The notes under the pieces were generated by a model. It ran no database searches. It was not told the origin of the DNA and saw nothing but the letters and a program-made list of their open reading frames with translations. A stretch of DNA of 35,444 bases from a virus. The stretch spans positions 1-35,444 of the IMG/VR virus record IMGVR_UViG_3300046642_000275; one strand, written 5' to 3'. Below, in pieces: positions 2,734 to 31,958 of the stretch. Numbering within the stretch: position 1 is the stretch's first letter; each line of letters begins with the position of its first letter. Position numbers and translations under genes: made by a program.

Positions 2734-3156
2734 ATGGAACGTCCAATGGCACACATTACCGTACCGGAAATCGCGGCCCGCATGGGCGTCTCTGCCGCCA
2801 CCGCAAAGCGACGCATTGCTGAATGGATGCTCGGAACCGGCTCCGCGCCGATGCGACCGGGCCGCGCCTATGTGCTGACCGAACAAGAATTTTCGCAAGT
2901 CATGGAGTTTACCCGATGTCGCTCAACCTCGTTGCCCCAGGCAAACGCAAGGGCAACCGCACTTGGATATTCCGAGGGCGAGTCGCCGGAAGGCTCCGCG
3001 AGATCACAACCGAGTTCGGCCCCGGTACGCCGGCGCGGGTCTTACGCCAAGCTGCGGAGCAAGCTGAACGAGAGCTTTGGGCCGAGTACGAGGCCGGTCG
3101 TGTCCCTCGATCTGGAGAAAACACGACGTTCCGCCAAGCGTCTGTGCAATACCTGA
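2734..3156 (+). CDS. small helix-turn-helix protein, excisionase-like
   Basis: The first 55 residues form a MerR/AlpA-like winged helix-turn-helix: ITVPEIAARMGVSAATAKRRI is the HTH, followed by a short wing and YVLTEQEFSQVMEF. This size and its place directly before the integrase fit an excisionase or a recombination directionality factor. The frame does not stop there: it runs 85 more codons, 241 bases into the integrase gene, giving a Ser/Arg-rich tail that looks like out-of-frame sequence. Starts at 2734 (AGG nine bases upstream) and 2746 (GGA eight bases upstream) are both possible. Function is inferred from fold and position; it could also be a transcription regulator. Confidence 0.7.
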   Translation: MERPMAHITVPEIAARMGVSAATAKRRIAEWMLGTGSAPMRPGRAYVLTEQEFSQVMEFTRCRSTSLPQANARATALGYSEGESPEGSARSQPSSAPVRRRGSYAKLRSKLNESFGPSTRPVVSLDLEKTRRSAKRLCNT

Positions 3157-3929
3157 ATCTCAAAGATCCACAGGCGCAGAACCTGCCGCTTCAGCGCAAG
3201 ATCGAGAAGCTTGTGGCCCAGCTCGGCGAGAGGACGCTCGCCAGCATCGGCGCGCAGGACATCATCAACCTCGCCAATCAGCTTTATGCCCACACGACGC
3301 TGAGCAGCCGCAACGACGCGGTGATCATCCCGGCGGCGGCGGTCCTCCACTACGCCGCCCGGAACGGCTGGTGTCAGTGGCTCAAGATTTCGCAATTCGC
3401 CAGGAAGAAGCCCGAGACTCGATCTGTGTCGGATGCGGTCGCCGAGACGCTGATCAACTCGCAGCCGATGGGCAGCTTCGAGCGGCTGTTCCTGCTCTGG
3501 ATATTCCGTCAGGGAAACCGCGTCACCGAGGCGCTGGGTGTCCGCTGGGAAAAGGTCGACCTGCCACGGCGAACCGTCGAGCTATGGGTCCAGAAACGGC
3601 AGGAATGGCGCAACAAGCCGCTGCACGACGAAGTGTTCGAGGCGCTGGCGGCGATCCCGCTGGCCGAGCGCGGCGAGTACGTCTTCCCGTGGCGGAAGCG
3701 CAACCATGTCTATGCGTGGCTCATGCCCTACGCGAAGCGGCTGGGTGTCCGGTTCACGCCGCACATGGCGCGGCATACCGTGGGCCGCTGGCTCAACGCC
3801 GAGGGCAACGGGCTGCGGACCATCATGGAGGTGATGGACCACCTCGACCCCCGGTCGAGCGTCCGTTACCAGAGCGTCGACGAGGCCACCGTGCGCAACG
3901 CGCTCGCGGGGCTGGGTAAGAGACGATGA
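2916..3929 (+). CDS. int: tyrosine site-specific integrase
   Basis: This 337-aa protein is a tyrosine recombinase that would integrate and excise the phage genome. An Arg-rich N-terminal arm-binding segment (about 1-60) and a SAM-like core-binding domain (about 70-165) precede the catalytic domain. The catalytic residues visible are Arg202 (GNRVTEAL), Lys227, His283 and Arg286 (HMARH), His309 (MDHLDP) and the nucleophile Tyr318 (VRYQ). Length and residue order are normal for the family, so it is probably active. The ATG at 2916 is preferred over 2823 because the recognisable family sequence starts at MSLNLVAPGK and the longer frame lies inside the HTH gene. Its stop overlaps the next start (ATGA). 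Confidence 0.95.
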   Translation: MSLNLVAPGKRKGNRTWIFRGRVAGRLREITTEFGPGTPARVLRQAAEQAERELWAEYEAGRVPRSGENTTFRQASVQYLNLKDPQAQNLPLQRKIEKLVAQLGERTLASIGAQDIINLANQLYAHTTLSSRNDAVIIPAAAVLHYAARNGWCQWLKISQFARKKPETRSVSDAVAETLINSQPMGSFERLFLLWIFRQGNRVTEALGVRWEKVDLPRRTVELWVQKRQEWRNKPLHDEVFEALAAIPLAERGEYVFPWRKRNHVYAWLMPYAKRLGVRFTPHMARHTVGRWLNAEGNGLRTIMEVMDHLDPRSSVRYQSVDEATVRNALAGLGKRR

Positions 3930-22025: not shown

Positions 22026-22924
22026 TCAACGACGCCTTGGCAAAATCGGCCCGCGTAAAGCACCATTGCCGCCGCCCATCCGAGGCTGTGGTTTCGGTGT
22101 TCGATTTTCGGTTTCCGTTTTCTCGGCCTGGACACTGGCGCGCAGCATCCCGAGCTGTACCAACGTCCGCGATTCCCACGGCTCCAGCTCGCCGACCTGG
22201 CTCAGTGCCTGCCAGGATCGCAGCGCTTCCCAGGTGATGACCGGCGGGGCAAAGCCATTCGGGGCCAAGCCATACGAGATCTCTTGAAACCAGCCCCAGA
22301 GGTAATCGAGCAGATCGGGGAACTCGGGACCGCTATCGATTTCCGGCACTTTGACCGGCTGATCGCGGCGGCTGGCGGGTCGCAGCGCAGCAGGGATCTT
22401 GGCCCACTGCGCCGCACCAGAAACCAGATGGTCGCGCTCGGTCGACCCGTCTACGGTTTTGCGGCCCGCCCTGAACTCGGACTCGGCCCATTCGACGAGG
22501 TCGATGACGAGGCCCGCGTAAAATTTCCCCTATCAGCCGCAAACTCGTCGACTTGCTCCCTGATCCAAGTGACTTTGTCGTAGACCACCCGGGCGTTTTG
22601 CGCCGAGAACGGCAAGCCCAGCATCGAGCCGTCGAGCGCGACCAGCGACCAGCCGGCGGTCAATGCCACCAGAAGATCGGTCGCTTCCGCTTCCAACTCT
22701 TCCGGGGTCAACTTCCCCCTGCCTCGCATGTTCAACCGGCGGCGTTGGGTTTCCCGGTTATGCCGGCGGGCGATATCGGAGTCCGAGGAGTAAAGATCAA
22801 CGTAGGCTTCCTCACCATTCGGCCCGCGGAGGGGCTGGCGGGTCTGGTAGTGAAGCAACGGCATTCGCTGCGGCTTTTCCACGTCGAGAGATAGCGCACT
22901 TAGCGCAGCGTCGATATCAGTCAT
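22026..22924 (-). CDS. tail assembly chaperone G-T, -1 frameshift product
   Basis: This is the long product of the chaperone pair, about 299 aa. The first 135 codons are shared with G. At AAATTTT (22526-22520 on the minus strand) ribosomes slip back one base, after Asn134-Phe135, and continue in the frame YAGLVIDLVEWAESEF to the stop at 22026. The extension ends with a T domain with the conserved-looking stretch LLDYLWGWFQEISYGLAP and ITWEALRSWQALSQ. In siphoviruses G and G-T bind the tape measure and the tube protein during tail assembly; the tape measure gene follows directly. The T frame has a stop just before the slippery site and no good start, so only frameshifting joins them. Confidence 0.85.
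22451..22924 (-). CDS. tail assembly chaperone G
   Basis: A 157-aa product made when no frameshift happens. Residues 1-135 carry the fold (TPEELEAEATDLLVALTAGWSLVALDG, then ARVVYDKVTWIREQVDEFAA). The last 22 residues after the slip site are low-complexity Ser/Pro/Arg, as expected for a zero-frame end. The start ATG at 22924 has AAGGA nine bases upstream. A conserved hairpin element lies 25 bases upstream of the start. The protein is expected to be far more abundant than the G-T form and to coat the tape measure in the cytoplasm. Confidence 0.85.
   Translation of the reverse strand: MTDIDAALSALSLDVEKPQRMPLLHYQTRQPLRGPNGEEAYVDLYSSDSDIARRHNRETQRRRLNMRGRGKLTPEELEAEATDLLVALTAGWSLVALDGSMLGLPFSAQNARVVYDKVTWIREQVDEFAADRGNFTRASSSTSSNGPSPSSGRAAKP
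22520..22526 (-). other. -1 programmed frameshift site AAATTTT
   Basis: The zero frame reads GGA AAT TTT, so the heptamer A-AAT-TTT fits X-XXY-YYZ. After slipping, the next codons are TAC GCG GGC, which open the T frame. The site lies just downstream of the stop of the T frame and at the point where the zero frame degenerates into low-complexity sequence. Confidence 0.88.
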
Positions 22925-22948
22925 AGGTGGCGGTCCTTCTGAGGGAAA

Positions 22949-22968
22949 GGCGCGCTTCGCAGCGGGCC
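22949..22968 (-). promoter_or_regulatory. conserved 5'UTR hairpin, copy upstream of chaperone G
   Basis: The minus strand reads GGCCCGCTGCGAAGCGCGCC: two eight-base arms with one C-C mismatch closed by a GCGA (GNRA) loop. The start codon of G is 25 bases downstream. A TTTCCCTCAGAAGGA box follows the hairpin and holds the Shine-Dalgarno sequence. Two related copies lie upstream of the tail tube (24370-24389) and capsid (31917-31936) genes. Confidence 0.8.
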
Positions 22969-22979
22969 GTTTTGGCGGG

Positions 22980-23016
22980 AAAAAGGGGACGCACCACCCG
23001 CCAGCGGCACGTCCCC
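22980..23016 (-). terminator. intrinsic terminator after the tail tube gene
   Basis: On the minus strand GGGGACG (23016-23010) pairs with CGTCCCC (22991-22985), followed by TTTTT. It lies inside the 158-base gap between tail tube and chaperone G. It would reduce read-through, so the tail tube transcript should exceed that of the genes beyond. The same gap (23018-23064) holds three further small hairpins: GGTAGCGCTACC, TCCGC-TTAC-GCGGA and CCTG-N6-CAGG. Confidence 0.75.
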
Positions 23017-23082
23017 CGGTAGCGCTACCATCCGCTTACGCGGACAGCCTCCTGTGGCGGCAGGAATGGTGACGAAAGACGG

Positions 23083-24345
23083 TTAGACCGCCTCGGTGTC
23101 GGTCATCATAATTGTGGTTTGCGGGACACCGACGGCGTTGCCCACATACTTCAACGCCGTGAAGGGCATCGTGAGCGTCTGCGCGCCCAAGCCGGTTACC
23201 GCGACGTCGGCGTCGGAGAACTTCACCCGCGGCAGGTAAATCGAAGTCGCCGCCGAACCTGGGTCGTTGGTCGTGGTCAGATACGCCAGGATATCCACCT
23301 CGTCTTCGTCGAGGAAATTCCTGACGAGGTCGAGGTCTTCCAGCATCGCAGTGACCTGTCCCGTGACCGCCGCGCTACCCAAAAACACTTCCGGCACGAA
23401 GTCCTGGCCCACGACCGCATCGGAACTGGGCGACAGCTCCATAGAGATATCAAGCCCGGTGACGACGCCGACCACGCTGCCGTTAACCCTCAACATGCCA
23501 TTGACCGCGGCGAAAATGCCGGTGGTCGTCTCGGGGTCGGGCGAAGTGAAGAACGGTGCCGGAACGCTTGTCCCGGCATCGAAGACCTCCATGTCGCGAC
23601 CCATCATCGTAAATTCGATGGTCGCCAAGCCCGACGCAGGCAAGCCAAGCTTGAACCCGCCGACCCGCACCTCGGTGAACAGACGGCTGACCCCGATATC
23701 TTCATGGAATGTCTCGATCGCGAACTTACGAGAGACGAACCCGCTGGATGGGATGATCAGGTTCGACCCGATTGTGTGGAGCGAGAAGGTCAGGCCGGCG
23801 GCCATCGTGGCTGGCGCAGGAAAGACCTTTACCGTGCTGTTGGTGACGCCACTAAAACCGACAGCGATGAAGTTGACGCCATTATTCGCCGCGCCGCCGC
23901 CGCTCAGCCCACCGAGCCGGAAGATGCTGCCAACGTGAAGCCCGAGCGCGACCGGATCGCCCCCGCCAAAATCCAGCGTCGACGCCGACGCATCAGCCGT
24001 GACGCTGGTCAGTTGCGCCTCGGTCAGCGATACCCCGGGCGTGGCGGTCCCGCGCGTCGCCGCCTCAAAGAAGTCGAAGTACGTCGCGGGGCTGAACTCT
24101 CCGGTGATCCCCCCGGTAACGCGACGGGTGCCATGCCGGAAATCCACGATCTGCCGATCGGAACGGATTTCGGTCGCCTGGTAGGTGTCCTTCGCGAGTT
24201 TTAGGGTCGAGGTCACGCGGCGAAGAACTTGCGCGCCGACTTGACCAGGGTCGGTCGCCGACACCGGCTGGGTGTTGGACTCGATCGCACCGTTTGCGTA
24301 GGGGAGGTACGCTACCCGTGCGCTTACGCCTTCAGCTAGAGACAT
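23083..24345 (-). CDS. major tail tube protein (two-domain size)
   Basis: A 420-aa protein located between tail terminator and tail chaperone genes, the standard place of the tube protein. The N-terminal half contains RRVTGGITGEFSPATYFDFF and the C-terminal half MLRVNGSVVGVVTGLDISMEL and SAAVTGQVTAMLEDLDL, two stretches of beta-rich tube-type sequence. Common tube proteins are 140-260 aa, so this one may hold two tandem tube domains or an added decoration domain. ATG 24345 is chosen since GGAG lies eight bases upstream; the frame extends to 24405 through the leader. A conserved hairpin precedes it and a terminator follows. Confidence 0.85.
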   Translation of the reverse strand: MSLAEGVSARVAYLPYANGAIESNTQPVSATDPGQVGAQVLRRVTSTLKLAKDTYQATEIRSDRQIVDFRHGTRRVTGGITGEFSPATYFDFFEAATRGTATPGVSLTEAQLTSVTADASASTLDFGGGDPVALGLHVGSIFRLGGLSGGGAANNGVNFIAVGFSGVTNSTVKVFPAPATMAAGLTFSLHTIGSNLIIPSSGFVSRKFAIETFHEDIGVSRLFTEVRVGGFKLGLPASGLATIEFTMMGRDMEVFDAGTSVPAPFFTSPDPETTTGIFAAVNGMLRVNGSVVGVVTGLDISMELSPSSDAVVGQDFVPEVFLGSAAVTGQVTAMLEDLDLVRNFLDEDEVDILAYLTTTNDPGSAATSIYLPRVKFSDADVAVTGLGAQTLTMPFTALKYVGNAVGVPQTTIMMTDTEAV

Positions 24346-24530
24346 AGTGGGCACTCCATCAAAGGGAGGGGCGCGTCTCACGACGGGCCGATTCGCCTTG
24401 CCCAAGGGCGTTTGAGTTAACCTCGCGCGGGCTTCACGCGAGGGTTAGGATGGGTGCGGCTGTGCGGGAGTGGCTCCCCAATTAAGCGCACAGACCGAGC
24501 GGGTTAGGAGCGCCGCGGCTCGGGCTGCGA
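24346..24530. other. structured 185-base gap before the tail tube gene
   Basis: This is the longest gap in the late operon after the leader. On the minus strand it holds, in order, GGCTGATCGCAGCC, a small GGGAG/CTCCC hairpin, a TAACCTCGCG hairpin (24418-24447, one bulge), the CGCCCTTGGGCAAGGCG hairpin (24394-24410), and the conserved element at 24370-24389. No open frame or convincing promoter is visible. Confidence 0.6.
24370..24389 (-). promoter_or_regulatory. conserved 5'UTR hairpin, copy upstream of the tail tube gene
   Basis: The minus strand reads GGCCCGTCGTGAGACGCGCC. Compared with the other copies the top two base pairs changed from CT/AG to TC/GA, which keeps pairing, while the C-C mismatch and a GTGA (GNRA) loop remain. 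The tail tube start is 25 bases downstream. The following box CCTCCCTTTGATGGA carries the Shine-Dalgarno GGAG. It contains an ATG that opens a 7-codon frame (24359-24336) overlapping the real start. Confidence 0.8.
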
Positions 24531-24992
24531 TCAGCCGATCAAGTCGAAAAACAGATCTACTTCGGCGGTCGCCCAGAAATAGTTGGTCACTTCCGATGGC
24601 AGGCCGATCGGCTTCAACATCGAACCGTCCCCCCCGGGATAGACCGTAGCCGTCGAGCAGGACACGTCAGCGTCGCGGTAGGAACGAAACAGCGATGCTG
24701 CCGTCTCGGCATAATCCGTCGCTGGAGCCAGCCCCCAGCCCCTCGGCACGAACACCCAGATGTCGAGACGTGCCGGGTTGCGGTATCGATTGCGATATCG
24801 ACCGCCGCCGAACGAGGCCAGCTCGCCAGGCTCGGCCAAAAACTCGGTGTAGAGAAACGGTGCCGGCGTATCAGGTAGCGTGACGTTGCCCGCGCTGTCC
24901 TCGTCCTCGTTCTGCCAGCGCAATGGCGGCAGCGAATTCGCGGCTTCCAATCGCGCTCGCAAGATCGCGTAGGCTTGGCTGACCGTGGTCAT
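24531..24992 (-). CDS. tail terminator/completion protein
   Basis: A 153-aa protein with the features of a gpU/DUF4128-like tail terminator: an N-terminal helix (VSQAYAILRARLEAAN) and then strands such as ARLDIWVFVPRGWGLA, a helix ATDYAETAASLFRSYRD, and C-terminal strands NYFWATAEVDLFFDL. Terminators cap the tube and join it to the head connector. The gene stands between the gp10-like protein and the tube gene, with a four-base overlap upstream (ATGA). The family match is from pattern, so assignment is good but not certain. Confidence 0.78.
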   Translation of the reverse strand: MTTVSQAYAILRARLEAANSLPPLRWQNEDEDSAGNVTLPDTPAPFLYTEFLAEPGELASFGGGRYRNRYRNPARLDIWVFVPRGWGLAPATDYAETAASLFRSYRDADVSCSTATVYPGGDGSMLKPIGLPSEVTNYFWATAEVDLFFDLIG

Positions 24993-25654
24993 AGCGGCTC
25001 GAAAAAGATGGCCGGCGCACGCACTTCAGTGCCGGCGATCTGCCTGCGCTTGCGCAGCGCGCCACCCTTGGCGATGTAATGGCTCGGCAACTTGCCCTTG
25101 ATTTGATAGGCCTCGGGCATCGTGACGTAACCGTAGGCGATCCGCGCCGCGTTGGCGTATCGAGCGCCCAGCTTCTTGGCGACCCGCTCGTAGATGTGGT
25201 TCGGCACACTGATCAGGAAGTCGCGACCGCTCTCGGTTTTGCCGACCTCCAATCGGCGGGCATAGACCACCGGATTGGCGATATAGACGTCCTGGCCGAT
25301 CGTTACCGGGGTGTTGTCCGGTGCCGGGCGTCCGTCGATGTACAACGAGTGGGAGTTCTTGTAGCGCCCCGAGTCGGCGGGTGAAGCGGCACGCAGCTCC
25401 TTCAGGAACTCCGAGATCATCTCTTGCAGATAGGTGTACTTGAAGACGATCGTTTGCTTGGCGTTGTCGATCGGTCCACCCGGCGGGTTATCGCCGACGC
25501 CCGTCCAGCTCGGCTTAAAGCCCGTCCGCTTCTGCTGCTCGTCGAGAACCTTCATGTTCTCGAGCTTCGCCTGCGAAACGAAAATCTGGCGGGCTTGCTC
25601 GTCGACCTGCTTCGCGACGATGGGGATCGTGCGCAGGAACGCGGTGAGCGCCAC
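24989..25654 (-). CDS. HK97 gp10-like head-tail/neck protein
   Basis: A 221-aa protein. The stretch LKELRAASPADSGRYKNSHSLYIDG is typical of the HK97 gp10/minor-tail Z family, in which a helix leads to a PADSGxYKxS turn. The N-terminus is helical (VAKQVDEQARQIFVSQAKLENM). The C-terminus carries basic strands. The family acts at the neck near tail joining. It overlaps the terminator gene by four bases and follows the head closure gene after a four-base gap, the standard order. Confidence 0.8.
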   Translation of the reverse strand: MALTAFLRTIPIVAKQVDEQARQIFVSQAKLENMKVLDEQQKRTGFKPSWTGVGDNPPGGPIDNAKQTIVFKYTYLQEMISEFLKELRAASPADSGRYKNSHSLYIDGRPAPDNTPVTIGQDVYIANPVVYARRLEVGKTESGRDFLISVPNHIYERVAKKLGARYANAARIAYGYVTMPEAYQIKGKLPSHYIAKGGALRKRRQIAGTEVRAPAIFFEPL

Positions 25655-25658
25655 GACG

Positions 25659-26012
25659 CTATCCCTTCACCCGCAAATTGTACGCGATCAGCTCGGTCCC
25701 GACGCTCCGGGTGGCGTTGTCAGGGAAGCTGATGGTGAATTCTTTGCCCTGGAAGACCACCTTGTCCGACCCGGTGAGCGGCAGCGGGAACCCGGCGTTC
25801 TCCAGATCCTCGACCAGCACGACCGCGTGATAGACCAGCTCCTTCAGCTCACCGACCAACGGCTCCTGGCGCAGAGGATCGGCTCGGATCCAGGCTCGGC
25901 ACTGCGCCTCGGTCACGGTGCGATCTGGCCCGGCCTTGCCGGTGTATCGGCGGATCGCGACGCTGTTGGTGAGAAAGCGTCGGTAGACCGATTTGGCGTA
26001 CTCCGGGGTCAT
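25659..26012 (-). CDS. head closure / head-tail connector protein
   Basis: A 117-aa protein with a helical N-terminus (EYAKSVYRRFLTNSVAIRRYTG), a middle with VTEAQCRAWIRADPLRQEPLVGELKE, and a beta-rich end (DKVVFQGKEFTISFPDNATRSV). Size and position between the gp6-like connector and gp10 match the head closure step. It overlaps the upstream connector by four bases. I name it by synteny and pattern. A specific family name is not certain. Confidence 0.7.
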   Translation of the reverse strand: MTPEYAKSVYRRFLTNSVAIRRYTGKAGPDRTVTEAQCRAWIRADPLRQEPLVGELKELVYHAVVLVEDLENAGFPLPLTGSDKVVFQGKEFTISFPDNATRSVGTELIAYNLRVKG

Positions 26013-26653
26013 ACGGTCCAGCGCTTGTAAGGGCTGAGCCAGCTACGAACCCCCGCGGGCGGCCCATCGGAGGTCGCCCCGGCGCCAGAATTCGGGTCGC
26101 CATACTGGACCGTGAGGACGTCGAAGACCGCTTCGGAACGGATCGAAGGATCGCGCCCACGCATGAGCCAACGAGCCGTCAGCCATTCGTTCGCCGCCGC
26201 CTGCAGATCGGCTGGGATCGGATCGTAGCCGGCGGTGTAATCCATCACGACCGCGGTGCCGCCCCAGCCTCCGTTGAGGCGGAAAGCGCGTCCGGTGTCG
26301 AGGTCGACCTCGAAGAGCGTAGGGTCGAGAACGCCGCCGTCGATCGTGACGCCGAGCAACGGGACCGGCGGCGTGCTGTCATCGAGCAGGATCGGGTATT
26401 GCTGCGCCCGCAACGGTTCGGCGTAGCTCCAGTAGAATTGGCTGAACTGGTCACGGTACGTCTGCTTCGGGAACAAGCGGTCGCAGTAGTTGGAAATCGC
26501 CGCCGACACAGCATTGATCTCGGCCTGGATAATATCGTCGTGGGATGTGTCTGACTCGGCTACGCCGAGCACGAGCTTGGCATCATCGAGGGTGATCAGC
26601 CCGGGATCGGTGGCGGGGGTTATCACCCGCGAGATCAGATAGCCGTTGCCCAT
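26009..26653 (-). CDS. gp6-like head-tail adaptor
   Basis: A 214-aa protein: ITLDDAKLVLGVAESDTSHDDIIQAEINAVSAAISNYCDR is the typical start of gp6/head-tail adaptors (helices that dock on the portal), and the C-terminal helix AANEWLTARWLMRGRDPSIRSE is also typical. The strand-rich middle (LLGVTIDGGVLDPTLFEVD) is the beta domain of longer members. Its start overlaps the stop of the collagen-like gene by one base. It would make the ring between portal and tail. Confidence 0.83.
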   Translation of the reverse strand: MGNGYLISRVITPATDPGLITLDDAKLVLGVAESDTSHDDIIQAEINAVSAAISNYCDRLFPKQTYRDQFSQFYWSYAEPLRAQQYPILLDDSTPPVPLLGVTIDGGVLDPTLFEVDLDTGRAFRLNGGWGGTAVVMDYTAGYDPIPADLQAAANEWLTARWLMRGRDPSIRSEAVFDVLTVQYGDPNSGAGATSDGPPAGVRSWLSPYKRWTV

Positions 26654-27726
26654 TATCGGACCACCTGAGTGAGCACCGGATAGAAGTCACAGGTCGTGGT
26701 CGCGCCGTCCTCGGCGGTCAGCGTCAGCAGCCCCTGGTTGTCGATCGTCGCACTGACGATCCGCCCAGCCGGGCCGCGATGACCGGGCTCGCCGCGCGGT
26801 CCCTGCTCGCCGGGTTTCCCCGAGCGCCCTTGTGCGGCGAGCAGTTGCCAGTCTGGGCCTGGGCACTCGCCAGGATCGTTGGAGCGGGCCACGAACGAGG
26901 CGCCACCAGTGGCTACGATATCCAATGCCGAATAGCGCTTCTTCGCGTCGTAGGTGCCCCGCACAGCCAGCGAGCGCCCTTCGGCACCAGCCGTCGCGAG
27001 GCAGAGCCAGTCCGCGTGCGGCGGCGCTCGTCCGGTGTCGCACCGGGCCTGCCAGGTCGCTCCGTCGTGGCTGACAACAGTTCCCTCGTAGTGGACGCCG
27101 TCTTGCCACTGGACAACCACCGGCAGCTTGCCTTGCGGCCCTTCAGGCCCGCGGTCGCCGTCGCGGCCCGGCTGTCCCTGCTCACCCGGCGGCCCGCGCT
27201 CGCCTGGCTCACCGGGCGGTCCCACGAGCGGCAGCTTGGCCAAGGCGGCCTCGACCAAGCGCGTGATGGTCGCCTCATCGGGCGGCGGTCCTGGCGGTCC
27301 CTCGGGACCACGCTCACCCGGCTGTCCCACACCCGGCGGCCCAGGAAGCCCAGGATCACCCGGAGGACCGACGATGGCTTCACCGTCCTTACCGGGCAAT
27401 CCCCGCTCCCCAGGCTCGCCGCGCGCCCCCTGCAAGCCGGTTTCCCCGCGCTCCCCCTTATCACCGGGATAACCCGGTGGTCCCTGGATACACTCGCCGG
27501 GCGGCCCGCGCTCGCCGGGCGGACCCTGCTCACCGTTCTGCAGCGTCGTCAGCCGGGTCACGACGTGCAGCTCCAGCTCGGCTTTCAGCGCCTGCAGCGC
27601 GGACATCTGCTCGCGCATTTCCGCCAAGGATGCCGCCACAGACAGCTTGACCTCGCGCTCGATCCGAGCAGCGATGGCACCAAGCAGCTCGCCCGCGACA
27701 TCAAGCAGCGAGTCGGTGTCGGTCAT
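26653..27726 (-). CDS. collagen-like virion protein with two carbohydrate-binding-type domains
   Basis: A 357-aa protein. Residues 1-62 are helical/coiled coil. Gly-X-Y triplets fill 66-148 and 170-199 and return at 300-321, with a helix break at about 151-167. Between 206-247 and 254-299 are two tandem copies of a module (xYxGTVVSHxGATWQA...DWLCLA and YSALDIVATGGASFVA...DWQLLA) that look like CBM5/12-type carbohydrate-binding folds. The start ATG at 27726 lies 26 bases inside the end of the portal gene; longer starts fall in that gene. Trimeric collagen fibres are known in phages. Placement among the connector genes is odd and suggests a head or neck fibre. Confidence 0.85.
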   Translation of the reverse strand: MTDTDSLLDVAGELLGAIAARIEREVKLSVAASLAEMREQMSALQALKAELELHVVTRLTTLQNGEQGPPGERGPPGECIQGPPGYPGDKGERGETGLQGARGEPGERGLPGKDGEAIVGPPGDPGLPGPPGVGQPGERGPEGPPGPPPDEATITRLVEAALAKLPLVGPPGEPGERGPPGEQGQPGRDGDRGPEGPQGKLPVVVQWQDGVHYEGTVVSHDGATWQARCDTGRAPPHADWLCLATAGAEGRSLAVRGTYDAKKRYSALDIVATGGASFVARSNDPGECPGPDWQLLAAQGRSGKPGEQGPRGEPGHRGPAGRIVSATIDNQGLLTLTAEDGATTTCDFYPVLTQVVR

Positions 27727-29125
27727 AGGCGACGCGGAAAGCGGCGCGGAAGGCAGCACTCTGCTGCTGCTGTTCGTCTGCTGCATTTGGGTCGCCCGTA
27801 TTAGTGCCTGTGCCGCCGCCATCGGCAGGAGCTGGCAGGGCTGGCGGCGTCGGTGAAGGCGGCTCCAATGCCGCGCCGTAGCTCAGCGGAACCACTTGCT
27901 GTTGCACCCGGGGCATGTCGCCGTAGCCGTCTTCGACAGCCGGCAAATCCTCGGAGGCCCGCGCCTCGTCGGGGCTGTAAATGCCCGAGATGACACCGCG
28001 CGCCAACGCCTCGATGCGCTCACGGTATGCGCTGCGCAACAGCGCCCGAGTGTCCAGCTCGAGGTACTCGTCGGGGACGCCCTTCAGCCCGAACAGCGCG
28101 CCGACAGCCTCCTCGATGTGGTTCAAGGTGAACCCGAGCCCCGAGGCGATCCACGACTGCATCAGCAGCTCGGTCGACGAATAGGTGTTGCCGCCGAGGC
28201 CGAGGATCTGCAGCGGGATCCGCATCGCCAGCGCGATGTTCTCGTTGGTCATCTTCAGCATTTCGGCGAGCTGGGAATCGACGGCGTTCGTCGTGATCGG
28301 GTGCGCCTTCAATCCGCCTGTCAGGATCGGGGTGCGGCCCGCATTCTCGCCTTGTGTCTGGTCGTCCCACCACGCGCGGAGTTCCTGCGCCTGTTCCCGC
28401 TTCATCACTGCATCGGTTTCGAGCGTGAAGCTGGGCCGTGCCTGGTTGAGGTAGAAGAAGACCTGTTGCTGGCGGGCCGCGCTCGCCATCGCCAGGTCGA
28501 CCGTCGCCGCCAGGATCGGGCTTTCGCCCCGCAGCGGGTGCCGCGGCGTATGCAGCCTGACATGCAGGATATCGCGCGCCGGGATCGGCTGGGAGAGGTC
28601 GAACCGAAGCTGCAGAATCTCGTTGCCGTAGACCGAATAGAAGATCGACCCTTCCTCGGCGATGGTCGCGCGCCCGTCGCGCACCAAGTGCAGTTCGCCA
28701 ATTTCGCCGCGGTTGTTGCGAATAGCGATGGCAAAGGCCTCGCCCTTCTCATAGAGGCGCCGGGTAAGGTTCAGGAGGAAATCGCTGATCGTTTGATAGT
28801 CGTTCGGCTGCTTGAGGATGCGCGACAGCGCGGAGTTGACCACCCGCTCACGACCGCCATTGTCGAGGCTGCGCCAGTGAGTGCCGGGGCACATGGGAAC
28901 GGTTTGCGAATACGCCGAGACGCAGGCCTCGACCATCGCGCTACGCTCGCCGTAGGGCTGCGGGCGGTAGCCGGTCTGCCACCAATTCCAGTATCGACCG
29001 ATATCCGCACCGAGCCACCCGTTGGGCGACGTGCCATCGGTGATCAGATACGGCCCGGGGCGGTACTGCCCTTCAGCAGCCCGCCCCAGCCATGACATGA
29101 CTTTGGTGGTAAGCCAGTTAGCCAT
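27701..29125 (-). CDS. portal protein, HK97 family
   Basis: A 474-aa protein that forms the dodecameric ring for DNA entry and exit. HK97-type marks visible are EACVSAYSQTVPMCPGTHW near the N-terminus, DILHVRLHTPRHPLRGESPI in the clip/stem, and MRIPLQILGLGGNTYSSTELLMQSW before the C-terminal domain. The last 60 residues are Pro/Gln-rich tail. The ATG 29125 overlaps the preceding gene's stop (ATGA); the longer frame to 29371 is Arg-rich shadow of that gene. Unusually, the portal gene follows the capsid gene in this operon. Confidence 0.92.
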   Translation of the reverse strand: MANWLTTKVMSWLGRAAEGQYRPGPYLITDGTSPNGWLGADIGRYWNWWQTGYRPQPYGERSAMVEACVSAYSQTVPMCPGTHWRSLDNGGRERVVNSALSRILKQPNDYQTISDFLLNLTRRLYEKGEAFAIAIRNNRGEIGELHLVRDGRATIAEEGSIFYSVYGNEILQLRFDLSQPIPARDILHVRLHTPRHPLRGESPILAATVDLAMASAARQQQVFFYLNQARPSFTLETDAVMKREQAQELRAWWDDQTQGENAGRTPILTGGLKAHPITTNAVDSQLAEMLKMTNENIALAMRIPLQILGLGGNTYSSTELLMQSWIASGLGFTLNHIEEAVGALFGLKGVPDEYLELDTRALLRSAYRERIEALARGVISGIYSPDEARASEDLPAVEDGYGDMPRVQQQVVPLSYGAALEPPSPTPPALPAPADGGGTGTNTGDPNAADEQQQQSAAFRAAFRVAYDRHRLAA

Positions 29126-29301
29126 CAGCGGGTCTTGTAGCGATCCCGCACTTTGGCTGGGCGCATCTCGCGGGTGTGCTTGGCTTGCGCCTCCTGCTCT
29201 GCTGGTGCCGGATCGCCGCCTTCGCCTTCGCCTTCGCCTTGGTGTTCGCCTTCGTGTTCTTGCTCCTCTTCCTCGGGAGCAGGCTTCGGATCGCTCATCA
29301 T
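29125..29301 (-). CDS. very acidic small protein
   Basis: A 58-aa protein of extreme composition: EEEEQEHEGEHQGEGEGEGG in the middle, then a basic end (EMRPAKVRDRYKTR). ATG at 29301 or 29298 are equally possible; GAGGT lies upstream. It overlaps the portal ATG (ATGA). Acidic low-complexity peptides in head operons can be scaffolds or DNA mimics. I cannot decide, and the family is not recognised. Confidence 0.6.
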   Translation of the reverse strand: MMSDPKPAPEEEEQEHEGEHQGEGEGEGGDPAPAEQEAQAKHTREMRPAKVRDRYKTR

Positions 29302-29309
29302 GGCAGACC

Positions 29310-29882
29310 TCACTTTCTGGACGTGGAGGGGTCGCTGCGGGCCGCCCGCGAAGCCGCGATCGCAACGGCATTCGACGGAGGCGCGGCGGTCCCGCCGATC
29401 GCGTTGGTCGCGGTGACCACGCAGCTAATGCTGTGCCCGACGTCGCTCTCGGTTACGACGTAGCTCGGGCCGGAGCCACATTGCTCCGTCCCATCACGCA
29501 TCCATTGGCCGCTGTAATGGGTAGGCTCGCCGTTCCAATTCCCCATCGTGCAAGTCAGGGTGTCGCCCGGCCCGGCGGTCATCGGCTGCACGCTCGGCAC
29601 ATCGACGTTTTCCGGCGCGGTTTCATCCTCACCGACACCGTGCGCGTCGAGCTTGAACCCGTCGGCCTCGTCCTGCGTCGGCGACGGCGGATCGGGGTCC
29701 GCGGGCGCGGCCAGCGCTGCGGTTTCAACCGCCGGGCTGTGCGACTTGAACCCGTTGGCCTCGGCCTGCGTCGGCGCTGGCGGATCGGCGACACCCGATC
29801 GAGTATCCTTCGGCCTTGCCACGTCTCGATGCGCTGGCGGCAGCGGCGTGTCCCTGTGGGCCGTCTCCCTGGTGCTTTCCAT
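29310..29882 (-). CDS. Ig-like domain virion protein
   Basis: A 190-aa protein. The C-terminal 95 residues match an Ig-like fold: GDTLTCTMGNWNGEPTHYSG, then WMRDGTEQCG, YVVTESDVGHSISCVVTAT, NAIGGTAAPPSNAV. These are the Cys-Trp-Tyr pattern of phage Ig-like domains that decorate capsids or tails. The N-terminal half is disordered and contains two copies of a PxPTQxEAxGFK motif (about residues 36-46 and 66-77), an internal duplication. AAGGA lies seven bases upstream of the ATG. Its place between capsid and portal suggests a capsid decoration protein binding host or surface polysaccharide. Confidence 0.75.
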   Translation of the reverse strand: MESTRETAHRDTPLPPAHRDVARPKDTRSGVADPPAPTQAEANGFKSHSPAVETAALAAPADPDPPSPTQDEADGFKLDAHGVGEDETAPENVDVPSVQPMTAGPGDTLTCTMGNWNGEPTHYSGQWMRDGTEQCGSGPSYVVTESDVGHSISCVVTATNAIGGTAAPPSNAVAIAASRAARSDPSTSRK

Positions 29883-29919
29883 GTCTTCGTCCTTTCTCGG
29901 AAGCGGTCAGCAAAAGGAC

Positions 29920-29939
29920 GGCGGGACCGAAGCCCCGCC
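29920..29939 (-). terminator. cUUCGg hairpin after the capsid gene, attenuator-like
   Basis: On the minus strand GGCGGGGC-TTCG-GTCCCGCC makes eight base pairs (one G-U) closed by a C(UUCG)G tetraloop, one of the most stable loops. GTCCTTTTG follows. It sits 18-37 bases after the capsid stop. It can act as a partial terminator and as a 3' block to exonucleases, keeping capsid mRNA abundant. Confidence 0.65.
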
Positions 29940-29956
29940 GCCCACGCCGAAAACGC

Positions 29957-31894
29957 TTATGGCCCCCAGTTCACCCCGGTCATGTATTGCACCATGCCGG
30001 GCCGCCTCATCGCCCAGGTGACATTGGCCAACATCCTGATCGCGATCTGCGCGGTCTGGAACATCGACTGCACCGGAGCGGCGACAACCGGCGGGGTGCC
30101 AGCAGTGCCGATGTTGAGCGGGGTGGTGTCCTCCATGTGCACGGTCGCGACCTCGCTGATCTCGAATTCGGGCGCGCCCGAAACGGACACGAAGTCCACA
30201 GCATCGATCATGTACACCGACCCTGACGGGATCGAGGTCGACTCGATGACCGCGAAGCGCTGGGTGAACTGACTGGCCCACCCGAACTGGACGCCGGTCG
30301 GACCTGGCGCAAAGATCAGTTGCTGCCCCTGCGCCGGGTTCATCAGCATCGCCAGCTTGCGACCCGCATTAACCGCGTAGAACGGGTTCGTCAGCGCCTG
30401 GATGTCGGCCAAGATCGCCGCGTAGCCCTTCGCGGTCGAAGCGGTAACCGCCACCACACCGTTGGTCAGGCCCGCTGGGCGGGTCGTGGACGTCGGAGCG
30501 GCATCGAGCAGCAGCGCATCGATGTTGATCGAGGTGTCGTCCGCGATAGCCTCGCGAATAATCCCTTCGATCGCCGGGTTGGAGTACATCGCGATTTCGC
30601 GCGAAAACACCGACAAGCCGCCGACTTTGTGGGGATACAACGTGATGCTCGTCGTCCCCAACCTGCGCACCGGAATCGGCGCACCTTCGGCCACGAACGA
30701 GCCACCGATCGACGGGGTGGTCGTCCTCGAGGGGATCTTGATCGATCCCGCATTCGCGCCGAAAGTCAGCGACGTGCCCATGCCCGCAAGCGGCTGGAAC
30801 ACGCTGACCGGCGTCAGCACTTGCAGGAAATCGGCCTGCCCGAGCTGAACCAAATCCATCGCCCATCCGGGTGTGGTCGTGGTCGCCCCTGCTATCGCGG
30901 CACGGGTGACGACTGCCGTCAGATCGTGGTCCGGGTAGCGTTCGTGCAGCACATCGTCGATCGAGCGATGGGTGACCTGGGAGATGAACTTGACCACCAT
31001 CGCCCGGGCGAGAAGCTCGCCAGGAGCGAGATCCTTGACCGCCATGCCGAGCGGTGGGCGACGAGCAACTCCCGTCCCCGCCGCCTGCTGTTGCTGCTGC
31101 TGCCCCAGCCCCTGATCGACAGCCCGTTGCGCCAGCGCTTTTTCGGTGCGCTGTAGCGAGGCGAGCCGTTCCTCGTGTTCACCGATCTCCTCTTGCAGCA
31201 GATCGGCTTCCGCCGTGTCGTGATCTGGGTCGCGTGTAAGTTCGATAAGCGCATCACGGGCAGCGTTGAGCATGAGCTGCCGGTCCTCGATCTGTCTTCC
31301 GACAGGAGTTGGTTGTCCGTTCATCGGGATCGCCCTTCTGCTTGGCGATTGACGTTCGGCTTGCCCGCCGCGGTTTAGTGCCAGGCCGTCTCGGCTTCGT
31401 GCTTGCCCGCTGAAGACGAGGGACATGGTTTCATGTGAAACATGCAGTGACTTCGCCACTTGCAGTGCCGCCGGGTTGGCGGGCACGCTGACGATCGACG
31501 TTTCGAGCAGCTCCTGTTTGGTGTAGCGCTGCCCGCCGTAAGGGTCTTTCGGGTCGATAGCCTCAGACTCGATCGGGTAAAACCCGACCGACGTCGCGCG
31601 CAGGATGTCCTGCTCGATCAGGTTGATGATTTCATCGACGCGTTGGGAGGTGCCGCGGGCCGCCGGGACAAAATCACCGAGCAGCTTGCCGCCCTCGGTG
31701 CGGACGTTCGCCCAGGTGCCGATCGGAAAGCTGCCCTGATGCCCGAACAGCGCGATCGGGTTGCGCCGAAAGTTGTCGAGCATCCAGCCGGTCGGCTCGA
31801 TGATGTCACCGTAGCGGTCGACCGTCGCGTCGCTGAGAATATAGGTCATCGACCCCGCGACCTTGCCGGTCACGACTTTGCGGATGGTGTCCAC
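29957..31894 (-). CDS. prohead protease-major capsid protein fusion
   Basis: One gene of about 645 aa makes both protease and capsid. Residues 1-165 are an S78-type prohead protease: His52 in FGHQGSFPIGTW and Ser133 in ELLETSIVSVPANPAAL. A linker (about 190-280) with a coiled-coil (EEIGEHEERLASLQRTEKALAQ) and poly-Gln acts like the delta/scaffold domain. From about 295 the HK97 fold follows (VTRAAIAGATTTTPG, PLAGMGTSLTFGANAGSIKIP, TSITLYPHKVGGLSVFSREI). I prefer the GTG at 31894 with GGAG six bases upstream, which keeps the same spacing to the conserved hairpin (23 bases) as in its sister genes. The ATG at 31906 is the alternative. Confidence 0.9.
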   Translation of the reverse strand: MDTIRKVVTGKVAGSMTYILSDATVDRYGDIIEPTGWMLDNFRRNPIALFGHQGSFPIGTWANVRTEGGKLLGDFVPAARGTSQRVDEIINLIEQDILRATSVGFYPIESEAIDPKDPYGGQRYTKQELLETSIVSVPANPAALQVAKSLHVSHETMSLVFSGQARSRDGLALNRGGQAERQSPSRRAIPMNGQPTPVGRQIEDRQLMLNAARDALIELTRDPDHDTAEADLLQEEIGEHEERLASLQRTEKALAQRAVDQGLGQQQQQQAAGTGVARRPPLGMAVKDLAPGELLARAMVVKFISQVTHRSIDDVLHERYPDHDLTAVVTRAAIAGATTTTPGWAMDLVQLGQADFLQVLTPVSVFQPLAGMGTSLTFGANAGSIKIPSRTTTPSIGGSFVAEGAPIPVRRLGTTSITLYPHKVGGLSVFSREIAMYSNPAIEGIIREAIADDTSINIDALLLDAAPTSTTRPAGLTNGVVAVTASTAKGYAAILADIQALTNPFYAVNAGRKLAMLMNPAQGQQLIFAPGPTGVQFGWASQFTQRFAVIESTSIPSGSVYMIDAVDFVSVSGAPEFEISEVATVHMEDTTPLNIGTAGTPPVVAAPVQSMFQTAQIAIRMLANVTWAMRRPGMVQYMTGVNWGP

Positions 31895-31916
31895 CGCAAG
31901 CTCCATCGTAGGGACA

Positions 31917-31936
31917 GGCGCGCTTCACAGCGGGCC
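31917..31936 (-). promoter_or_regulatory. conserved 5'UTR hairpin, copy upstream of the capsid gene
   Basis: The minus strand reads GGCCCGCTGTGAAGCGCGCC, eight-base arms with a C-C mismatch and GTGA (GNRA) loop. It differs from the chaperone G copy by one loop base only. The box TGTCCCTACGATGGA follows. Confidence 0.8.
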
Positions 31937-31958
31937 ACGGGAAGTTAGGTTTCGGCCT

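Follow-up and report, generated by a model that had tools for sequence, protein, structure and literature searches.

A covarying RNA hairpin at a fixed distance from the start codons of virion protein genes in unrelated phages

A phage must make hundreds of capsid and tail tube subunits from operons that hold genes for single-copy parts as well, and the viral DNA analysed here raises the question of what a repeated hairpin in the leaders of such genes might contribute. The stretch, IMG/VR record IMGVR_UViG_3300046642_000275 (35,444 bases, hereafter called the window), carries on its minus strand a head and tail operon with genes for terminase, a protease-capsid fusion, portal, tail terminator, tube, chaperone and tape measure. 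An earlier note, made from the sequence alone, had described three minus-strand 20-mers with common arms, a C-C mismatch and GNRA loops in the leaders of the capsid, tube and chaperone genes, and we recovered all three in place. Comparison with sequences from other phages shows that this repeat is an RNA element and that it is tied to translation starts.

The main hairpin (H2), identified by sequence and folding, reads GGCCCGCT-GCGA-AGCGCGCC upstream of the chaperone G gene (22949-22968), GGCCCGTC-GTGA-GACGCGCC upstream of the tail tube gene (24370-24389) and GGCCCGCT-GTGA-AGCGCGCC upstream of the capsid gene (31917-31936), always on the minus strand. A conserved block including the Shine-Dalgarno sequence follows each hairpin on the same strand, TCCCT-N2-GAAGGA for the chaperone (22934-22946) and TCCCT-N2-GATGGA for the tube (24355-24367) and the capsid (31902-31914), which corresponds to the TCCCT-N2-GA(T/A)GGA box of the earlier note. 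The minus-strand genes that follow encode a tail assembly chaperone (22451-22924, ATG at 22924; PHROG 313), a tail tube-like protein (23083-24345, ATG at 24345; PHROG 290) and the protease-capsid fusion (29957-31894, GTG at 31894; PHROGs 617 and 80). The GTG start of the capsid gene is backed by a relative (L013) in which the ATG within GATGGA is out of frame. PHROG 290 is labelled "minor tail protein"; from gene order and the "major tail" annotation at the same position in other phages, we infer that the window protein is the tail tube. Between hairpin and start codon we counted 24, 24 and 22 nucleotides (nt) for chaperone, tube and capsid, in agreement with the codon starts at bases 25, 25 and 23 claimed before. 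The consensus unit of the window (n = 3) is GGCCCGNN-GNGA-N'N'CGCGCC, then TCCCT-N2-GAWGGA, then the start codon. Folded alone, each 20-mer gave the same structure at about -10 kcal/mol. In folds of longer stretches the hairpin formed in two of the three leaders, and the chaperone leader preferred another structure. Because of this, the energy model alone is unconvincing, and it is the comparative evidence that convinces.

Bacterial and archaeal sequence totalling 257 Gb contained the exact pattern followed by TCCCT three times, twice chance-like and once in a phage contig; given this rarity, three copies in 35 kb are not due to chance. A scan of IMG/VR with the pattern GGCCCGNNGNRANNCGCGCCNNTCCCT, which holds neither a Shine-Dalgarno sequence nor a start codon, returned 68 matching stretches, and nearly all of them continued into a GAWGGA-type Shine-Dalgarno sequence and a start codon. 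A covariance model built from the copies (R1, with rough E-values) found extra copies in the same contigs before other structural genes, and after the addition of relaxed patterns 101 distinct elements could be parsed from IMG/VR phage contigs. All copies were in one orientation only. Freeing the mismatch in the pattern added just one locus, carrying C-A. Freeing the stem revealed a second class in which the mismatch lies one step lower (GGAACG/CGTCCC, GGACCG/CGGCCC and GGAGCG/CGCCCC, with A-C; GGACTG/CAGACC, with A-A), and freeing the loop gave a GNGA tetraloop or a GNGAY pentaloop, one of which is present in 98 of the 101 parsed hairpins. The trinucleotide TCC stands 3' of the hairpin in all aligned copies (100/100), within the conserved block TCCCTNNGAWGGA.

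When named phages were searched with short DNA queries, the window-type sequence found no true copy, and the A-C class matched Mae-JY02, Mel-JY03 and Pseudanabaena phage Pan4. A degenerate copy lies directly 5' of a gene annotated "major tail protein" in Mae-JY02 and Mel-JY03, and Pan4 likewise has one ahead of an annotated major tail gene. The window had no match in Rfam 15 at the gathering threshold, and the relaxed threshold gave merely sub-threshold, implausible matches in two leaders; a literature search of partial coverage found no description of the element. The earlier impression that it had not been described is supported as regards Rfam, and the element looks like a new signal controlling the production of abundant virion proteins.

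We then asked whether the arms are kept paired. In a 36-sequence set, selected for the most part by a pattern with invariant outer arm bases, which leaves only the two inner pairs as a free test, 99.6% of cells were paired, compared to 89.3% in shuffles and 27-60% when the partner was slid, with two-sided changes at four pairs. In a set of 121 hits, 98.9% of cells were paired, five pairs and 72 cells had changed on both sides, and none of 500 shuffles scored as high; the swaps at outer pairs come from R1 hits and looser scans. Selection on pairing, proposed before from two base pairs, is thus supported by both sets. Moreover, loop length differs by one base between the tetraloop and GNGAY forms while the arms remain paired. 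Comparison of the copies shows that, in mRNA sense, the arms of the element can pair over about 8 bp, interrupted by one internal mismatch and closed by a GNGA or GNGAY loop. These features bear on the reading of the repeat as a DNA site, that is, a promoter, an operator or a boundary at which phages recombine and so swap modules more easily. Such a site would suit the location at gene boundaries and the presence in unrelated phages, as expected of a recombination joint. However, compensatory changes with a variable loop length, the conserved C-C or A-C mismatch, the asymmetric loop and the fixed distance to the start fit RNA rather than duplex DNA, and we consider this reading the least probable of those weighed here.

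The position of the hairpin is narrowly defined. In 92 of 95 copies the start codon follows its 3' end after 21-26 nt, and the standard deviation of the spacing is 1.8 nt to the start codon versus 89 nt to the upstream stop codon, which ties the element to the start that follows it rather than to the end of the gene before it. The downstream genes form about 21 families that blastp could not join (61 clusters at 70% identity) and are nearly all structural. Their products are capsid proteins of several types, scaffolds, tail tubes, sheaths and the chaperone, which supports the association with abundant virion or assembly genes noted before in the window. Their PHROG matches are to major head proteins (10, 617, 283, 334, 264), a head protein (240), scaffolds (3927, 8865), sheath (165), chaperone (313) and tail tubes or major tail proteins (158, 290, 1407, 185, 807). 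A few are functionally unassigned (PHROGs 8234, 8917 and 13692, and one gene without a match in L181); among the relatives of PHROG 13692 is a protein of an Arthrobacter phage that is annotated as major capsid protein. The carriers include siphovirus, myovirus and podovirus modules.

This diversity bears on who reads the element. Known phage-encoded translational regulators include Com, acting on mom, and the coat proteins of RNA phages, acting on their operator. Like the MS2/Qbeta operator and other phage translational operators, the element is a small hairpin beside the ribosome binding site, with a specific loop and a mismatch or bulge in its stem, and some relatives lack it at all readable sites, both of which would suit a repressor or activator made by the phage. 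In contrast to the MS2/Qbeta operator, it is not confined to one coat protein family: the same element stands before about 21 mutually non-homologous families, which excludes simple coat-protein autoregulation, and the feedback site suggested in the earlier note is therefore unlikely. A conserved phage regulator, also proposed there, fares no better. When all open frames were compared, no gene was common to 18 element-bearing contigs. Just head-module genes reach 10 lineages, and once the podovirus lineage is included nothing is found in more than three, so that a phage-encoded factor shared by the siphovirus, myovirus and podovirus lineages was not found in these contigs. Overall, we regard a phage regulator as improbable.

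We favour, at roughly even confidence, the explanation that the element acts in cis, as a folded RNA leader in front of individual structural cistrons, and serves translation initiation of the abundant virion proteins. The structural genes are probably on one shared transcript of the operon. The leader unit would act at translation initiation by presenting a defined fold immediately 5' of the stretch covered by the ribosome, so that translation of capsid, scaffold, tube and sheath genes could start efficiently or at the right time. Its reader may be a host component, either a host RNA-binding protein or the 30S subunit itself. Indeed, a host factor or the ribosome appears likelier as reader than a phage factor, since no gene could be detected that all the unrelated carrier phages share, and since gain or loss of the element seems to affect all sites of a lineage at once. 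Relatives L089-L091 (tube 78% identical) have it neither at the tube nor at the chaperone gene, and in L092 it is absent at the chaperone gene, the whole 28 kb contig being without a match. Relatives that lack the element lack it at every readable site. This all-or-none pattern, seen in the few genomes compared, suggests that the element depends on a single trans-acting factor or a single property of the host.

Several observations weigh against this explanation. The tree of tube proteins does not separate one loss from several. No true copy was found with the strict pattern in host chromosomes, searched as one genome each of 84,980 species, although degenerate copies could be missed there, and R1 found none in 385 Alphaproteobacteria under stricter filters; host copies might be expected if a host factor reads the element. 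Contig completeness is uncertain, and a small, fast-evolving phage RNA-binding protein could escape the shared-gene comparison. Exceptions to the consensus exist, namely a TGGT loop (L239), a fully paired stem (L183) and the loss of the GNGA loop in Pan4. Finally, a UCC-GGA mini-hairpin that would hide the Shine-Dalgarno sequence had no covariation support in the aligned copies; it was rejected, with a median pairing probability of 0.09 and flanking bases that do not covary. Mimicry of rRNA was rejected as well, since R1 scored at best 8.3 bits against the E. coli rrnH region.

Other stable hairpins near the same genes bring in the possibility of an mRNA stabiliser or processing site, in which the RNA would be cut close 5' of the hairpin, which would then form or shield the new 5' end of the capsid, tube or sheath message. 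RNase III sites in T7 and the 5' hairpins of ompA mRNA are precedents, and the T7 sites and other 5' stabilising hairpins likewise directly precede capsid genes with high expression. In named rhizobial phages, major tail genes often have a terminator-like or other stable hairpin right in front of them. A stable hairpin also precedes the tube gene in relatives L095 and L096, so that a hairpin per se may be useful at such sites, and a terminator-like hairpin with a T5 run (22980-23017, minus strand), outside the element itself, separates the tube gene from the chaperone leader of the window. However, a generic stabiliser needs neither the invariant TCC, nor the GNGA loop, nor the fixed mismatch, and the spacing to the start codon is much tighter than it would require. 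Compared to T7 RNase III sites, the element has a fixed sequence, a fixed distance to the start and only about 8 bp, a stem too short for a standard RNase III substrate. We therefore hold a stabiliser or processing site to be rather unlikely. In Rhizobium phage 16-3 and other rhizobial and Labrenzia phages (L299, L300, L301, L303), a terminator-like hairpin with a U run lies directly 5' of the major-tail Shine-Dalgarno sequence.

A signal at the level of transcription, such as a pause hairpin, a put-like RNA or a boxB-like antitermination site, was also considered. Lambda boxB is likewise a short GC-rich hairpin with a GNRA-like tetra- or pentaloop; the element has GNGAY pentaloops and falls within the 5-8 bp expected of a boxB hairpin. 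Moreover, a terminator-like hairpin adjoins one copy, and one element-bearing myovirus contig has a phage NusG-like gene (L137, 756-1247, minus strand). Against this stand the strict spacing to the start codon and the presence of several copies within one operon, each directly at the ribosome binding site of a structural gene, unlike lambda boxB. No gene for an arginine-rich, N-like protein common to all element lineages was found among the element-bearing contigs, which may be incomplete, and N proteins are short. We consider a transcription signal very improbable.

A companion hairpin (H1) was identified by sequence and covariation upstream of the tube copy of the window. It reads CGCC-CTTGGGCAA-GGCG (24394-24410, minus strand) and ends 4 nt before H2. 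With a stem of 4-5 bp and the loop CYTNGGCAA, H1 occurs upstream of 37 of the 101 copies, compared to 0.3 expected in shuffled sequence, at a nearly constant distance from the main hairpin. Its stem covaries strongly (95.5% paired versus 56.7% shuffled, with 49 two-sided cells). H1 also stands alone, with no main hairpin beside it, in L089-L091, in Rhodobacter phage RcapNL (ahead of its major tail gene) and in an alphaproteobacterial prophage (L332), and it looks like an undescribed RNA motif in its own right. It precedes tail tube and capsid genes in many phages, for example in the window, at about 2500-2516 of L104, in L332 and in L319. Searched alone in Alphaproteobacteria, H1 gave mostly chance matches inside genes. 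The sheath and tube leaders of myoviruses (L051, L056, L065, L194, L201, L230, L238, L240) carry, by eye, a different upstream hairpin with GCGGGA in its loop. This loop is complementary to the conserved UCCC 3' of the main hairpin, and a pseudoknot is possible.

The partner hairpin, the spread to other virion types and the joint absence in relatives go beyond the earlier note. A wider proposal, which we hold only tentatively, is that the two-hairpin RNA is a general phage late-gene signal, read directly by a host ribosome component or RNA-binding protein. Capsid, tail and sheath genes with no relation to each other would have acquired it repeatedly, and a lineage would have lost it across its genome once it became independent of the reader. 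The hosts are perhaps Alphaproteobacteria, to judge from the relatives of downstream tail proteins and from H1 in RcapNL and alphaproteobacterial prophage DNA. One downstream tail protein has its relatives almost exclusively in phages of Rhizobium, Sinorhizobium, Labrenzia and Bradyrhizobium, and another downstream protein occurs in Brevundimonas phages. Mae-JY02, Mel-JY03 and Pan4 are recorded as cyanophages; their GC content is 64% and Pan4 has genes like those of gene transfer agents, and this record was thus treated with caution. The window phage is probably temperate, since it encodes a tyrosine integrase (2823-3929, plus strand), although a prophage copy of the element was not found in the genome collection.

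The closest described analogue is the Start Associated Sequences (SAS) and Extended SAS (ESAS) of Cluster K mycobacteriophages (PMC3203893; PMC12699233), with a similar motif in Microbacterium Cluster EF (PMC7302621). Both systems are repeated phage sequences that include the Shine-Dalgarno sequence, are fixed to start codons, often have an inverted repeat just upstream and are practically absent from host chromosomes. SAS has the 13-bp consensus GGGATAGGAGCCC at the ribosome binding site of non-structural genes in one phage cluster (PMC3203893; PMC12699233), whereas the element has a different conserved block and precedes nearly only structural genes in unrelated phages. Its arms also covary strongly, in contrast to those of ESAS, where, as the authors state, the changes seen give no support to pairing of the repeats as RNA (PMC3203893).

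Two further features of the window lie near these genes, an inverted repeat upstream of the tube leader (24421-24443, minus strand) and a gene for a collagen-repeat protein (26653-27822, minus strand) between the portal and head-tail connector genes.

For metagenomic phages, the element offers a simple annotation mark for major structural genes. It is also a candidate expression part for the hosts. If the proposed role is true, a sequence-specific leader common to unrelated virion genes would be a shared solution to the problem of dosage and would point to an unknown host reader.

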